Shown: piece by piece, positions 44,635-49,564 of the stretch
Numbering within the stretch: position 1 is the first letter of the stretch
Layout: the number at the start of each line of letters is the position of its first letter
Source of the DNA: Leptospiraceae bacterium
Lineage (GTDB): Bacteria; Spirochaetota; Leptospiria; Leptospirales; Leptospiraceae
Reading direction: 5' to 3'
DNA: 64,000 nt
Assembly (NCBI GenBank): GCA_022402465.1
Contig: JAKRSH010000022.1
Span: 1-64,000 of the forward strand
Position numbers and translations under genes: made by a program
Notes under the pieces: model-generated
The model's database searches: none
Seen by the model: the letters and a program-made list of their open reading frames with translations, nothing else
What the model was told of the DNA's origin: nothing

Positions 44635-45408
44635 TTAGATTTTATGGGCACCTGGTGATTGATTTGTTGTTATTTGCAATTCGATTGCTCTAAGATTCCT
44701 GATTTCTGAATAATTTTTAGATAAAGAAATAGAGATTTCCCTTTCCCAGGATGGAATTGGAATTAAATCGTCTTGGGCAAGACTTCTCCAAAGTAGACTT
44801 TCATCTTCCTTGGATCTAGAAAAGTAAAAAGGATTCCTATTTTCATCCTTTTCAATTTGTGGATAGTTTGTATCATTTTGTCCAATTAATTCTATAAGTT
44901 CATATCCTCTAGCTTCAATATAATTCAAAAAAGATAGCCCAAATGGATTCAAATCTTTTGTTTCATTTGGAATAATTTGTGTTCTCCATTTGTACCAATC
45001 GTAACCGTAAAGAAAATCATGAAGATATTTAAAACGAACCAAAGAATGGGACCCAAATAATCTAAAGATAGTTGAAATTTTCTTTTTACGTTCTTCTAGA
45101 AATTCTGATTTATCTTTTGTTGAACTATATTCAGAAACCAAAGAATGAATGAAAAAGTCAAAATCCCAGAAAATGTTTTCCTTGAAATTGAAAACAGACT
45201 CTTCTATGAGAAGCTTACAGAAAAGAATCCATTCCGTAATTTCCAATTCGGAATCTAAGTTTTCTTTTTCTACTTCCAATATTTGAGTAATGCAAGTCGC
45301 CAATTCTTTATTAGGAGATAAAGATAAGAAAGAAATAGAATGATCTTTTAATAATTGATCAATTGCAATTAGTAAATCTATTTGATAATTAGTAAATTTC
45401 GAACTCAA
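44635..45408 (-). CDS. Unknown protein coupled to a UbiA prenyltransferase gene
   Basis: 257 aa, TTG start overlapping the UbiA gene stop by 4 bp (TTGA), so translation is coupled. No membrane segment or signal peptide. It is acidic and rich in aromatic residues (YDWYKW, FWDFDFFIH, LLWRSLAQDDLIPIPSWE). The second half has an ordered stretch NPFGLSFLNYIEARGYELIE and NPFYFSRSKEDES. No family is recognised. Context suggests a role with the prenyltransferase, but the sequence itself gives no activity. Confidence 0.6.
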   Translation of the reverse strand: MSSKFTNYQIDLLIAIDQLLKDHSISFLSLSPNKELATCITQILEVEKENLDSELEITEWILFCKLLIEESVFNFKENIFWDFDFFIHSLVSEYSSTKDKSEFLEERKKKISTIFRLFGSHSLVRFKYLHDFLYGYDWYKWRTQIIPNETKDLNPFGLSFLNYIEARGYELIELIGQNDTNYPQIEKDENRNPFYFSRSKEDESLLWRSLAQDDLIPIPSWEREISISLSKNYSEIRNLRAIELQITTNQSPGAHKI

Positions 45409-46337
45409 AATCGGACCAAACCCTTACCTAGGAATATTAAGGATAGAATTAGAAAATTCCCCCAAATCAAAAGGTGCAATTTGGATTTATAATATTGAAT
45501 ATCTAAAAAAGCCTCTGTAACAGCTTTCTTTTTTAAACTATACAAATTTTGTAATAGAATTAAATTAAAAACTGCCAAGAAGAATACTTCAATCCAAGAA
45601 AGGATTTCATCATGAAATATTGGTGTAAGTAGTATAAAGCAAAAACCCACAAAACTAAAACCTAAGATTAAATTTTTGGAATACTCATTCCCCCATTTTG
45701 TAACAAAGGTTTTCTTTCCTCCCTTGCGGTCTGAGACTTCATCACTGAGACCACTAGCAATAGCACTTGCTAAAGCAAATGATAGAGAACTTAAATAAAG
45801 AAAATATAGATTAGAAATATTAATTTCCCCAGCTTGTAGGTATAGATTGCAAATTGGTAAAAGGAATCCAACTCCAAACATTTCTAAAAATTCCCCACCC
45901 CCTAAGTAATTCAAACGTATAGGCGGGGCTGAGTACAATAAAAATATGAATAAGCAGATAATTCCCATAAGCCCGAAGGAAACTCTTTGTAAAAAAAATT
46001 CAGCGAAAAAAGAAATAAGTCCAGCGAAAACACCTGAAAGTATTCCTATCAGTAAAAGTTGATTTGCAGGAAGAATTCCATCTGGGATGGTTTTAGGGCT
46101 TCCTGAGCTTGGATACAAACTTCTTTTGATTCCATCTACCTTCTGATCCCAAAAATCATTTAAGAGAACAATAAAAATAGTCAGAAAAAAGGTAAATGCC
46201 AATCCAACTAGGAAGGGAAGAAGAGAATAGTCATGAGAGATGAAGACTCCTAAACTTTGCCCCCAAAAAAAAGGGATCAGCATCTTAGGCCAAGAATTGA
46301 TTTTTATAGCAAAAAGCCATCTTTGGAAAAATTTCAT
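45405..46337 (-). CDS. UbiA-family prenyltransferase (copy 1)
   Basis: 310 aa with about eight to nine membrane segments. The first Asp-rich motif is NDFWDQKVDGIKR (Asn60, Asp61, Asp64, Asp68) and the second is DEVSDRKGGKKT (about 198-209), both binding prenyl diphosphate through magnesium. An SSGSPKTIPDGILPA block follows the first motif. UbiA enzymes prenylate aromatic or polyene acceptors (quinones, haem, chlorophyll, carotenoids). It is divergent from an ABC/UbiA/lycopene-cyclase-like cluster that holds a second UbiA gene. MenA-like or carotenoid-type substrates cannot be told apart from the sequence alone. Confidence 0.85.
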   Translation of the reverse strand: MKFFQRWLFAIKINSWPKMLIPFFWGQSLGVFISHDYSLLPFLVGLAFTFFLTIFIVLLNDFWDQKVDGIKRSLYPSSGSPKTIPDGILPANQLLLIGILSGVFAGLISFFAEFFLQRVSFGLMGIICLFIFLLYSAPPIRLNYLGGGEFLEMFGVGFLLPICNLYLQAGEINISNLYFLYLSSLSFALASAIASGLSDEVSDRKGGKKTFVTKWGNEYSKNLILGFSFVGFCFILLTPIFHDEILSWIEVFFLAVFNLILLQNLYSLKKKAVTEAFLDIQYYKSKLHLLIWGNFLILSLIFLGKGLVRF

Positions 46338-46425
46338 AGAGATATTAAATGTTTGAAAGGATAATTCTACTTTCCATTTTCATATTAGAAATCAATCTGA
46401 ATCCATATACACAATTTTAAAAAAA

Positions 46426-47193
46426 ATGTCCAACAATTCTAAATTCTCTATTACCTTGGATCAAATTTCTAAATCCTATGGCCCAAGAATCGTTCTAAAA
46501 GATATACAATTAGAATTTGAATCCAGTCGCATCTTTGGACTGATTGGAGCGAACGGATCAGGTAAAACCACCCTGCTTGAAATTCTGGTTGGTTTAAAAT
46601 CTTATGATAGTGGATCTATCCTTTTTCAGTTAGAACAAAACCATACTTCCATTCCGAAGAATCTAATCGGATTTGCAGGTCAAGTGCCTGTGTTATGGAC
46701 TCAATTAACTTGCAAAGAACATGCACAACTCCTAGGAAGATTCTATAATTTATCTAAACAAAAATCAATGAGTGCTATGGAAGATCTTTTTGCAAAATTT
46801 CACTTAAGCAGTTACCAAAATGAAAGAATTGAAAATTTATCCGGTGGACTAAAACAAAGACTAAATCTTGCACTATCCCTATTGCATAAGCCTAGAATCC
46901 TGATTTGGGATGAACCAACTACTGGCCTAGATATCGATTCTAAATTATTGCTTCGTGACTTATTAATGCAGTATTCCCAAGAAACCTTAGGAATCATAAT
47001 TCTCTCAAGCCATGATCTTTTTGAACTGGAAAACCTATGCAACCATCTAATCTTTCTAAACCAAGGAAAGATTCTAGCCCAAGGAAGCTTTGTCGAATTA
47101 CAAAAAAAAATGAAAGAGCAATATAATTTTAACAAACGAAATATACACCTTGAAGATATCTATAAATCCTTGATCCAAACAACTGAAAAATGA
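46426..47193 (+). CDS. ABC transporter ATP-binding protein
   Basis: 255 aa, ATG start. Walker A is GANGSGKTT (41-49), the Q-loop is near FAGQVPVLW, the signature is LSGGLKQR, Walker B with catalytic Glu is ILIWDEPTTGLD, and the H-loop is SSHDLFE. The sequence is typical of the ABC-2 exporter/CcmA-like class. It overlaps the permease gene by 4 bp (ATGA). The cargo is unknown; neighbouring UbiA and cyclase-like genes suggest a lipid or isoprenoid. Confidence 0.93.
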   Translation: MSNNSKFSITLDQISKSYGPRIVLKDIQLEFESSRIFGLIGANGSGKTTLLEILVGLKSYDSGSILFQLEQNHTSIPKNLIGFAGQVPVLWTQLTCKEHAQLLGRFYNLSKQKSMSAMEDLFAKFHLSSYQNERIENLSGGLKQRLNLALSLLHKPRILIWDEPTTGLDIDSKLLLRDLLMQYSQETLGIIILSSHDLFELENLCNHLIFLNQGKILAQGSFVELQKKMKEQYNFNKRNIHLEDIYKSLIQTTEK

Positions 47194-47933
47194 AACTTAT
47201 ATATCTAATTCAGAAAGCATGGATTCAACAATCACGAGATATATTATCTTTAGTTTTACTGATTTCAACAACTCCTATTCTATTTTTACTTTATTATTCC
47301 ATTACTTTGGGTGAATCAAAAGAATTTATAACTTTGCTAATTTTACTTTCTGTAATCATGGTAGTATTTTCTTCCTCTATGGTTGTTGCTAAAGAAATAG
47401 AATCAAAAACAATCATTCGTTTGATACTTGCAGATATTCCCTATTACCAAGGAATCATAGGATTGTGTTTGGTTCAATTTTTCTTAAGTATAATTTCTAT
47501 TCTTTTAACTTTCATTTTTTTATTTTTTTATGAAATATACAATATAGAAATTTTAATAGAATTTTTCTATTTCGCTACTATCAATTCCCTTACTTCCATT
47601 TGGATAGGAGCAAGTGTTGGATCACTCACAAGAAATACTTTTAAAGCTTTTACAATTTCCAGTCTACTTATGTTTTTATTATTATTGCTATCAGGAGCTC
47701 TCTTCCCAATTCCTAGAAAAGAGATTTTATTCTTTAATACGATTCCTATAAGATTATTTGATTTAATACCTTCTAACCTTTTCCTACAAAGTATAAATTC
47801 TATTTTAGAATCAAATAAATCTAAATCAGGAAATTTACTCTTTCAAAATTCTTTCCTCTCATTTTTCTATTTTGTTGTAGCTATTGCATTTTTTCAAATT
47901 TCTAAAACCAAGAAGGTGAATGATGAACTCTAG
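47190..47933 (+). CDS. ABC-2 type transporter permease
   Basis: 247 aa with about six membrane segments, starting ATG overlapping the ATPase stop. The pattern of a short N-terminal cytoplasmic helix (IQKAWIQQSRDIL), membrane pair, EIESKTIIRLILAD coupling loop and a late LSGALFPIP segment is like ABC-2/CcmB permeases. It is the second gene of the four-gene plus-strand cluster and overlaps the UbiA gene by 14 bp, which argues for one operon. The substrate is not deducible. Confidence 0.85.
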   Translation: MKLIYLIQKAWIQQSRDILSLVLLISTTPILFLLYYSITLGESKEFITLLILLSVIMVVFSSSMVVAKEIESKTIIRLILADIPYYQGIIGLCLVQFFLSIISILLTFIFLFFYEIYNIEILIEFFYFATINSLTSIWIGASVGSLTRNTFKAFTISSLLMFLLLLLSGALFPIPRKEILFFNTIPIRLFDLIPSNLFLQSINSILESNKSKSGNLLFQNSFLSFFYFVVAIAFFQISKTKKVNDEL

Positions 47934-48825
47934 ATTTTTTATTTGGATAAAGGCAGCAAGACTTCCGTCGCAATCTTACATTTTAATTCCCATACTACTG
48001 GGACAAATGGTAGCATTTTCAATCTATAAATATTTTTCATGGCATTTATTTTTACTTTTATTAGCTTTTAGTTTGTTTATACAATTTTACATAATATTTG
48101 CCAATGACTTTGCTGACTTTGAAACAGATAGACTCAATAAAACCTACACCATATTTTCTGGTGGATCAAGAGTATTAGTTAATGGGGAACTCTCATTTAG
48201 TGCTATTAAGATAGCAATCCTAGCAGCAATGACTCTTTGTTTGGTTGTGGGATTCATTTTTACTTTTCTTTACCAAAGAAACTTAGCCCTGGCATTTGTA
48301 ATTCTAAGTTTCTCTTTACTTTGGGCATATTCTTATAAACCTTTACAACTCTCTTATCGAGGTGGAGGCGAATTATTGCAGACTTTAGGACTTGGACTCG
48401 TACTTCCTTATTTTGGATTTTATATCCAATCAAATTCTTTAATAGGACTTCCATTTCTTTTGCTTTGTATTTTGTTTCCTACTCATCTTGCTTGTGCAAT
48501 TGCAACTTCCTTGCCAGATCAACCTTCAGATGCACTTTCTGACAAGAAAACATTTACGGTTCAATTTGGGAGTGATTTCGCTAAAACAACAATCTTAGTT
48601 TTGCAGATTATTTCTTTAGTTCTCTTATGGATCTATTTTAAAGAAACATTCCAGAATCCAAAGATGGAATTTTTAATTTATCTTCCAATTATTGGTATTC
48701 TATTGAGTCTCCCTTTTTTCAGATCAAATCCAAACGAAACGAAACTAAGTTTCTTTGTGTTTTTTTCTCTCCTAACAACAATGGCAACTGAGATAGTTTT
48801 AATTCTAATCCACTATTTTGGATAA
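47920..48825 (+). CDS. UbiA-family prenyltransferase (copy 2)
   Basis: 301 aa (ATG 47920, or 47923 one codon later; AAGGTG lies just upstream). About nine membrane segments. The first motif is NDFADFETDR (Asn62, Asp63, Asp66, Asp70) followed by FSGGSRVLVNGELS, a MenA-like-looking block; the second is PDQPSDALSDKKT (about 197-209). It differs clearly from copy 1 across the divergent gap but follows the same plan. The 14-bp overlap with the permease gene and a 37-bp gap to the lycopene-cyclase-like gene put it in that operon. Acceptor unknown: a quinone ring or a carotenoid are both possible. Confidence 0.85.
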   Translation: MMNSRFFIWIKAARLPSQSYILIPILLGQMVAFSIYKYFSWHLFLLLLAFSLFIQFYIIFANDFADFETDRLNKTYTIFSGGSRVLVNGELSFSAIKIAILAAMTLCLVVGFIFTFLYQRNLALAFVILSFSLLWAYSYKPLQLSYRGGGELLQTLGLGLVLPYFGFYIQSNSLIGLPFLLLCILFPTHLACAIATSLPDQPSDALSDKKTFTVQFGSDFAKTTILVLQIISLVLLWIYFKETFQNPKMEFLIYLPIIGILLSLPFFRSNPNETKLSFFVFFSLLTTMATEIVLILIHYFG

Positions 48826-48862
48826 GATACAAAATCAATTACTAACTAAGATTCAAATATAA

Positions 48863-49564
48863 ATGTTACAATTTTTGATAGATCATAACTTTTTAGTATT
48901 AAGCTTATTATTCATCATGCCAGGAATTGCTATATGGTTGCTTAGAAAGGATTTACGAGAACCTATTTTTTTAATGTCGGTTGCAAGCATTCCCTTCGCT
49001 TTTACAGAGTATTTATTCTACCCAAATTATTGGGAGCCAAAATTTCTTTGGAATCTCATCGATAAAATTGGATTTGGTCTTGAAGATATTATATTTGTTA
49101 TAGGACTTGCAAGTTTTTCATCTACAGTATACGCTTTCATTTTTCAATTCAAGTACCACCCAAGAGAAAAAATAAACCGCATACGACAAATTCAAAGAAT
49201 CAGTCTTCTGTTCATCATCGTATTAATATTATTGCTTTCTGTTTTATATTTTAAAATTCCTATCATTTATGGAAGTATAATTATTATGATTGGACTTAGT
49301 TTATTTATTTTCAACCAAAGACGAGATCTTATTTCACCTGCGATTTGGGGAGGATGTTTAACTTGTTTGATTTATACTATATTATGTGTAGTACTAATTA
49401 TTATCTATCCAAGAATCTTTACAATTACTTGGCATACAGATAAATTTTTAAATCTTTATTTCTTCGGATTACCATTTGAAGAACTTCTTTATGGATATAG
49501 TTCTGGATTCATAGCAACCATCTTTTATCCATATGCAACCAATTCATACTTTATAAAAAAATAA
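48863..49564 (+). CDS. Lycopene-cyclase-domain membrane protein (two CrtYc/d-like halves)
   Basis: 233 aa with about six to seven membrane segments. Two internal halves each end in the CrtYc/CrtYd-type acidic motif: FGLEDIIFVIG (71-81) in the first and FFGLPFEELLYGYSSG (200-215) in the second, where cyclases have L-P-x-E-E. A YW/Y-W-E-P stretch and ITWHTDKFLNL precede them, matching the W-rich region. In actinobacteria and archaea such heterodimer-type domains make beta, epsilon or gamma rings on carotenoids, some with a UbiA elongase giving C50 products. No phytoene synthase or desaturase gene is in the window. The family call is good; catalysis is inferred. Confidence 0.7.
   Translation: MLQFLIDHNFLVLSLLFIMPGIAIWLLRKDLREPIFLMSVASIPFAFTEYLFYPNYWEPKFLWNLIDKIGFGLEDIIFVIGLASFSSTVYAFIFQFKYHPREKINRIRQIQRISLLFIIVLILLLSVLYFKIPIIYGSIIIMIGLSLFIFNQRRDLISPAIWGGCLTCLIYTILCVVLIIIYPRIFTITWHTDKFLNLYFFGLPFEELLYGYSSGFIATIFYPYATNSYFIKK

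Follow-up and report, generated by a model that had tools for sequence, protein, structure and literature searches.

What a protein of the lycopene cyclase type does in a genome unable to make carotenoids by known routes is the question raised by a locus at positions 44,635 to 49,564 of a 64,000-nucleotide stretch of Leptospiraceae DNA (the window; assembly GCA_022402465.1, contig JAKRSH010000022.1, positions 1 to 64,000). Four genes on the forward strand form an operon encoding an ATP-binding cassette (ABC) ATPase, an ABC-2 permease, a UbiA-family prenyltransferase (UbiA1) and a two-repeat membrane protein resembling CrtYc and CrtYd (CYC). To our knowledge, cyclases of the CrtYc/d type are known solely as carotenoid enzymes. 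The module is real and conserved, and no known pathway in this genome explains it. The genes of the operon are as follows:

46426-47193, + strand, 255 residues: DrrA-like ABC ATPase at the head of the operon (PF00005, ABC_tran, 101.7 bits)
47190-47933, + strand, 247 residues: ABC-2 permease (ABC2_membrane PF01061, 32.6 bits; ABC2_membrane_3 PF12698, 34.9 bits)
47920-48825, + strand, 301 residues: UbiA1, prenyltransferase with DxxDxxxD and DxxSD motifs (PF01040, 82.6 bits)
48863-49564, + strand, 233 residues: CYC, two-repeat CrtYc/CrtYd-type lycopene-cyclase-like membrane protein (PF18916, 42.3 bits)

The ATPase and the permease both exceed the Pfam cut-offs and thus represent an ABC-2 transporter pair. 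ATPase and permease genes overlap by 4 bases and permease and UbiA1 genes by 14 bases, and a 37-base gap separates UbiA1 from CYC; open reading frames and Pfam matches agree in this respect with the operon described in the first-pass annotation, which had been made from the letters of the window.

Conservation of the cyclase-prenyltransferase pair

In a tree of CYC proteins, the Leptospiraceae sequence falls into a clade of seven genomes (clade A, support 100/100), comprising its own genome, Ilyobacter polytropus and five metagenome-assembled genomes (MAGs). One of the latter, L012, belongs to the Myxococcota, and L013-L016 are filed as Planctomycetes-Verrucomicrobia-Chlamydiae (PVC), Desulfuromonadales (two MAGs) and Sumerlaeota. 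Both genes are present in all seven genomes, a UbiA1-type gene being found in each of the five MAGs, and at five of the seven loci CYC and UbiA are adjacent or fused. The CYC of I. polytropus is 48% identical to that of the window and its UbiA1 neighbour 51% identical over 225 residues; here, as well as in L013, UbiA1 directly follows CYC. L012 has the four genes in exactly the order of the Leptospiraceae operon, ABC-permease-UbiA1-CYC, likewise with 4-base overlaps. The syntenic L012 ATPase and permease are 34% and 31% identical to their counterparts, and the permease is the sole homologue of the window permease among 12 other genomes. In the Sumerlaeota MAG L016, a single 579-residue reading frame (L016:618-2357) encodes both CYC and UbiA1, a fusion known from a single assembly at about 7-fold coverage; fold prediction of the fusion gave a predicted template modelling score (pTM) of 0.54, with unreliable domain orientation. 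As a separate observation, a gene for an ABC1/UbiB-type kinase lies divergent from the four-gene operon of L012 (L012:2463-3893), and a related gene stands beside CYC in L023.

A run of the UbiA profile over 83 loci placed UbiA near CYC only at clade-A loci and at none of the 77 other CYC loci, a contrast corresponding to a Fisher p of about 7e-7 on samples that are not independent. The other CYC clade (Flavobacteriia, Methylophaga, Burkholderiales and DPANN archaea, in stress and metal islands) shares the two-repeat architecture and the invariant residues at 25-30% identity, but carries GFDIES instead of GFGLED and has no UbiA beside CYC in the 77 loci; its conserved neighbours are efflux and stress genes. 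Within this GFDIES clade (L021-L091), a strongly conserved gene block is seen in Flavobacteriia (e.g. L021:5000-12000), and the Methylophaga copies stand beside resistance-nodulation-division (RND) efflux or arsenic genes.

Among 393 genomes of the phylum, CYC relatives were found in the present genome only; none was found in 7 other genomes of the family, and none in viral contigs. As CYC was not found in the other family and phylum genomes searched, horizontal acquisition is indicated, and the module has probably reached this genome by transfer. A literature search on the CYC-UbiA gene pair, and on PF18916 outside carotenoids, returned nothing relevant.

Family assignment of CYC and UbiA1

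CYC clearly exceeds the gathering cut-off of PF18916 (Lycopene_cyc; 42.3 vs 27 bits), the match covering residues 135-224. Against NCBIfam no match was obtained at E ≤ 1, and thus none to TIGR03462 (CarR domain), for which the L012 CYC reached 22 bits with a cut-off of 39.4. Comparison of the N- and C-terminal halves as hhalign profiles revealed that they are homologous (96% probability, E 1e-9), i.e. a tandem repeat, and CYC is therefore a fused CrtYc-CrtYd-type protein. The alignment of the halves pairs E74 with the E206/E207 motif. The two motifs on which the first-pass annotation had based its lycopene-cyclase-like assignment, FGLED and GLPFEE, are located at residues 71-75 and 202-207, and both the PF18916 match and the repeat agree with that assignment. 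The annotation had also named a lack of conserved acidic residues in homologues as a point that would count against it; instead E49, E74, D155, E206 and E207 are invariant across 46 aligned sequences, together with R153 and W190. CYC thus shares tandem membrane repeats and paired acidic motifs with the two-repeat lycopene cyclases (PF18916; CrtYc-CrtYd and the fungal CarRA/CrtYB domain), but differs from them in forming its own clade, in having no TIGR03462 match, in its linkage to UbiA and in that no carotenoid pathway was found with it.

The AlphaFold2 model of CYC is of high confidence (predicted local distance difference test 92.8, pTM 0.89). The sequence had no match in the PDB, and a Foldseek search of the model against PDB and BFVD gave nothing under E 0.001. 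The top fold match was the Insig homologue MvINS (Z 8.5, 4.2 Å, 162 residues), clearly ahead of the following fold (Z 3.1); the match is suggestive, but with values of a kind that helical bundles reach by chance. A fold kinship between CrtYc/d cyclases and Insig proteins is a possibility raised by the comparison of MvINS with the model of 48863-49564; a literature search on a lycopene cyclase-Insig link found nothing relevant.

UbiA1 (82.6 bits) and UbiA2 (72 bits), the product of a second prenyltransferase gene in the locus, are both over the PF01040 cut-off of 34.2 bits and contain two Asp-rich motifs. One clade unites UbiA1 and its orthologues with UbiA2 and the second UbiA of L012; it is supported at 98/98 with six long rows left out of the alignment and weakly with them included, and lies inside a larger group in which MenA is its sister. 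The best curated matches of UbiA1 are likewise MenA models, in a comparison made without characterised CrtEb or LyeJ sequences. Against the MenA equivalog models, however, the UbiAs reach 67.6 bits at best, with a cut-off of 264, and 34 bits against TIGR00751, with a cut-off of 102. The first motif reads DxxDxxxD in all eight subfamily members and DxxDxxxxxD in all four MenA references, a contrast that matches the difference described in PMC9235831. Sequence matches of the UbiAs in the PDB were chlorophyll synthase and an archaeal UbiA, and nothing else. Assignment of the two proteins to the menA type, a concern voiced in the first-pass annotation, was ruled out, as they miss the MenA cut-offs and lack the DxxDxxxxxD motif. 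Judged by sequence, UbiA1 and UbiA2 constitute a new MenA-sister subfamily of UbiA prenyltransferases. They also differ from MenA (1,4-dihydroxy-2-naphthoate polyprenyltransferase) in setting, the organism having futalosine-route genes. A further parallel is provided by the Ubi-297-type orphan UbiA of marine Flavobacteria, which likewise belongs to none of the main quinone routes, is part of a conserved operon and has a DxxDxxxD-type motif; it farnesylates quinoline carboxylates, and the accessible text of PMC9235831 mentions neither a cyclase nor an ABC exporter with it.

Substrate and possible chemistry

The genome (G000) is rated 100% complete, in 45 contigs. No protein in it matches PF00494 (phytoene/diapophytoene and squalene synthases), a search that returned matches in 7 of 14 genomes as a control, and its best CrtI score is 60 bits vs a cut-off of 238. 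Because a complete-rated genome is without PF00494 and without CrtI over cut-off, a phytoene-derived (classical carotenoid) substrate appears very unlikely here. This genome-wide search for crtB and crtI had been proposed in the first-pass annotation, and its outcome fits the guess made there of a possible substrate other than a carotenoid. Nor did PF00494 turn up in any of the five clade-A MAGs, among them G393 with its 8.2 Mb, but this is weak evidence, since the MAGs may be incomplete and contigs below 3 kb are not in the source collection; CrtI over cut-off was absent from G393, G394 and G397 as well as G000. With regard to quinones, the genome encodes two PF02621 proteins (MqnA/MqnD family, futalosine route) and, elsewhere, a UbiA_other/MqnP-type enzyme, CtaB and a decaprenyl-phosphate phosphoribosyltransferase. 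Consequently, with MqnA/MqnD-type genes, an MqnP-type enzyme and CtaB at hand, menaquinone and haem synthesis need not use UbiA1 or UbiA2.

The observed features, i.e. the gene identities, the operon layout, the conserved association, the intact motifs, the lack of carotenoid synthase genes and the separate UbiA/MqnP-type enzyme, may be read as a prenyl-lipid tailoring module, in which a non-carotenoid prenyl lipid is made by UbiA, end-cyclised by CYC and moved by the ABC pair; we consider the chances of this reading to be about even. UbiA motifs are established as signatures of prenyl transfer, and CrtYc/d proteins as catalysts of acid-initiated cyclisation. UbiA1, possibly with UbiA2, would bind a polyprenyl diphosphate through its DxxDxxxD and DxxSD motifs, together with Mg2+, and pass the prenyl group on to a lipophilic acceptor that does not belong to the organism's own menaquinone route. 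The paired acidic residues of CYC would protonate the free prenyl end to give a beta- or epsilon-type ring, without phytoene or lycopene, and the DrrAB-like ABC-2 pair would carry the resulting amphiphile through the inner membrane or release it from there. The first-pass annotation had proposed an isoprenoid modification and export system; the conserved UbiA-CYC association speaks for the pairing of the two proteins, and we infer the substrate, the cyclisation, the order of the steps and the export.

In its widest form, which we hold somewhat short of even, the proposal is that a lycopene-cyclase-type enzyme works outside carotenoid metabolism and, with the new UbiA subfamily, yields a non-carotenoid prenyl lipid with a cyclised end (prenylquinone-like or meroterpenoid), served in some lineages by a dedicated ABC-2 transporter and spread among spirochaetes, fusobacteria, myxobacteria and uncultured lineages. 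The conserved pairing of cyclase and UbiA in a genome without a known carotenoid route points to a class of cyclised bacterial isoprenoids not recognised so far, and a 'lycopene cyclase' annotation need not mean carotenoids.

Several observations weigh against a tailoring module of this kind. In the two Desulfuromonadales MAGs, UbiA1 does not adjoin CYC but is found on another contig, at the contig end. The CYCs of L013, L014, L015 and L016 are 75-80% identical across MAGs filed in three phyla, a likeness attributable to recent transfer or misbinning, and about four diverged lineages are therefore counted. The ABC pair is kept in just two of these, and no acceptor-making genes lie near the module. 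Moreover, the Desulfuromonadales MAGs encode a CrtI-family desaturase (G396, 317 bits, over cut-off; G395, 228 bits, truncated), each gene adjoining an aldehyde dehydrogenase and cut by the contig end (L137:2-2819, L138:2-2477), and carotenoids are possible in these two bacteria. Finally, CYC could by now be a non-enzymatic lipid-binding protein. A blanket denial of carotenoid genes in all relatives was abandoned in view of the CrtI matches in G395 and G396.

The alternatives are taken in falling order of likelihood. UbiA1 and CYC may act on menaquinone intermediates to give an end-cyclised, menaquinone-like respiratory quinone, with the ABC pair incidental or engaged in lipid transfer. End-cyclised menaquinones occur in Nocardia, the UbiA1 subfamily is the sister of MenA, and the ABC1/UbiB-type kinase gene adjoining the L012 operon leans weakly towards a quinone-like lipid, because the family is linked to quinone lipids. 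The motif and scores of UbiA1 are nevertheless not those of MenA, the genome has its separate UbiA/MqnP-type enzyme and no quinone-biosynthesis gene adjoins the operon, and we regard this explanation as unlikely, though not far-fetched.

Rather unlikely is also carotenoid tailoring, in which UbiA1 would elongate and CYC cyclise a C30 or C40 carotenoid in the manner of CrtEb and CrtYe/Yf, the carotenoid being supplied by a non-homologous synthase or by uptake. The model is the C50 operon of Corynebacterium glutamicum, crtE-cg0722-crtBIYeYfEb, which groups cyclase subunits and the UbiA elongase CrtEb with an efflux gene (PMC5401885). The same logic is seen in a UbiA that adjoins two CrtYc/d-type units in an operon containing a transporter gene, and the desaturases of G396 and G395 point the same way. 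In C. glutamicum, however, the cyclase units are separate and the transporter is of the RND type, whereas here the units are fused and the transporter is ABC-2; crtE, crtB and crtI are in the operon there, whereas here none is in the operon and crtB and crtI were not found in the genome. PF00494 is, as described above, absent from this genome and from all clade-A MAGs, the CrtI score of G000 is far below cut-off, and the curated families nearest UbiA1 are MenA-type. The C50 analogy drawn in the first-pass annotation is a fair one as domain logic, and no proof of carotenoid chemistry.

An Insig-like role, with CYC as an isoprenoid-binding partner that regulates or docks UbiA and is not a cyclase, would suit the MvINS fold match (Z 8.5) and the single CYC-UbiA fusion in L016. 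We consider it improbable, since acidic residues invariant in both repeats and the PF18916 match suit an enzyme, and a Z of 8.5 falls in the range of common helical-bundle matches. That the UbiA and cyclase genes are chance neighbours, unrelated in function, is barely credible: CYC and UbiA1 are indeed unlinked in two Desulfuromonadales MAGs, but against this stand the four diverged lineages, the identical four-gene order in L012, the fusion and the lack of UbiA at all 77 other CYC loci (the non-independent Fisher comparison given above). Adjacency in about four lineages and one fusion likewise bear out the annotation's view that the UbiA and the CrtYc/d-type protein belong together beside the exporter.

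Divergent genes and setting of the locus

Two further genes of the locus are divergent from the operon:

45405-46337, - strand, 310 residues: UbiA2, prenyltransferase (PF01040, 72 bits)
44635-45408, - strand, 257 residues: orphan gene, matched by neither Pfam nor NCBIfam, coupled to UbiA2

They share a 4-base TTGA overlap, in line with the coupling reported in the first-pass annotation, although the 257-residue gene lies beyond the interval (45405-49564) which that annotation gave. UbiA2 is 34% identical to UbiA1 and has no close relatives among 296 genomes of the phylum. The second subfamily member in the L012 genome (29% over 233 residues) is located away from the four-gene operon, and the membership of UbiA2 in the module is uncertain. 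The 257-residue gene, for which no family was found in Pfam or NCBIfam and no homologue among 149 genomes of the phylum, carries for these reasons no weight in the argument and probably lies outside the conserved core. Of the single system into which the annotation had gathered all the genes of the locus, the ABC-permease-UbiA1-CYC core therefore stands, and UbiA2 and the 257-residue gene are not part of it as conserved. A scan of the locus for promoters and terminators gave nothing above the level of shuffled sequence. The flanks are made up of ordinary-looking cellular genes, with aminopeptidase-like, RNA-binding, glutaredoxin-like, flagellar-rod-like and ATP-grasp products.

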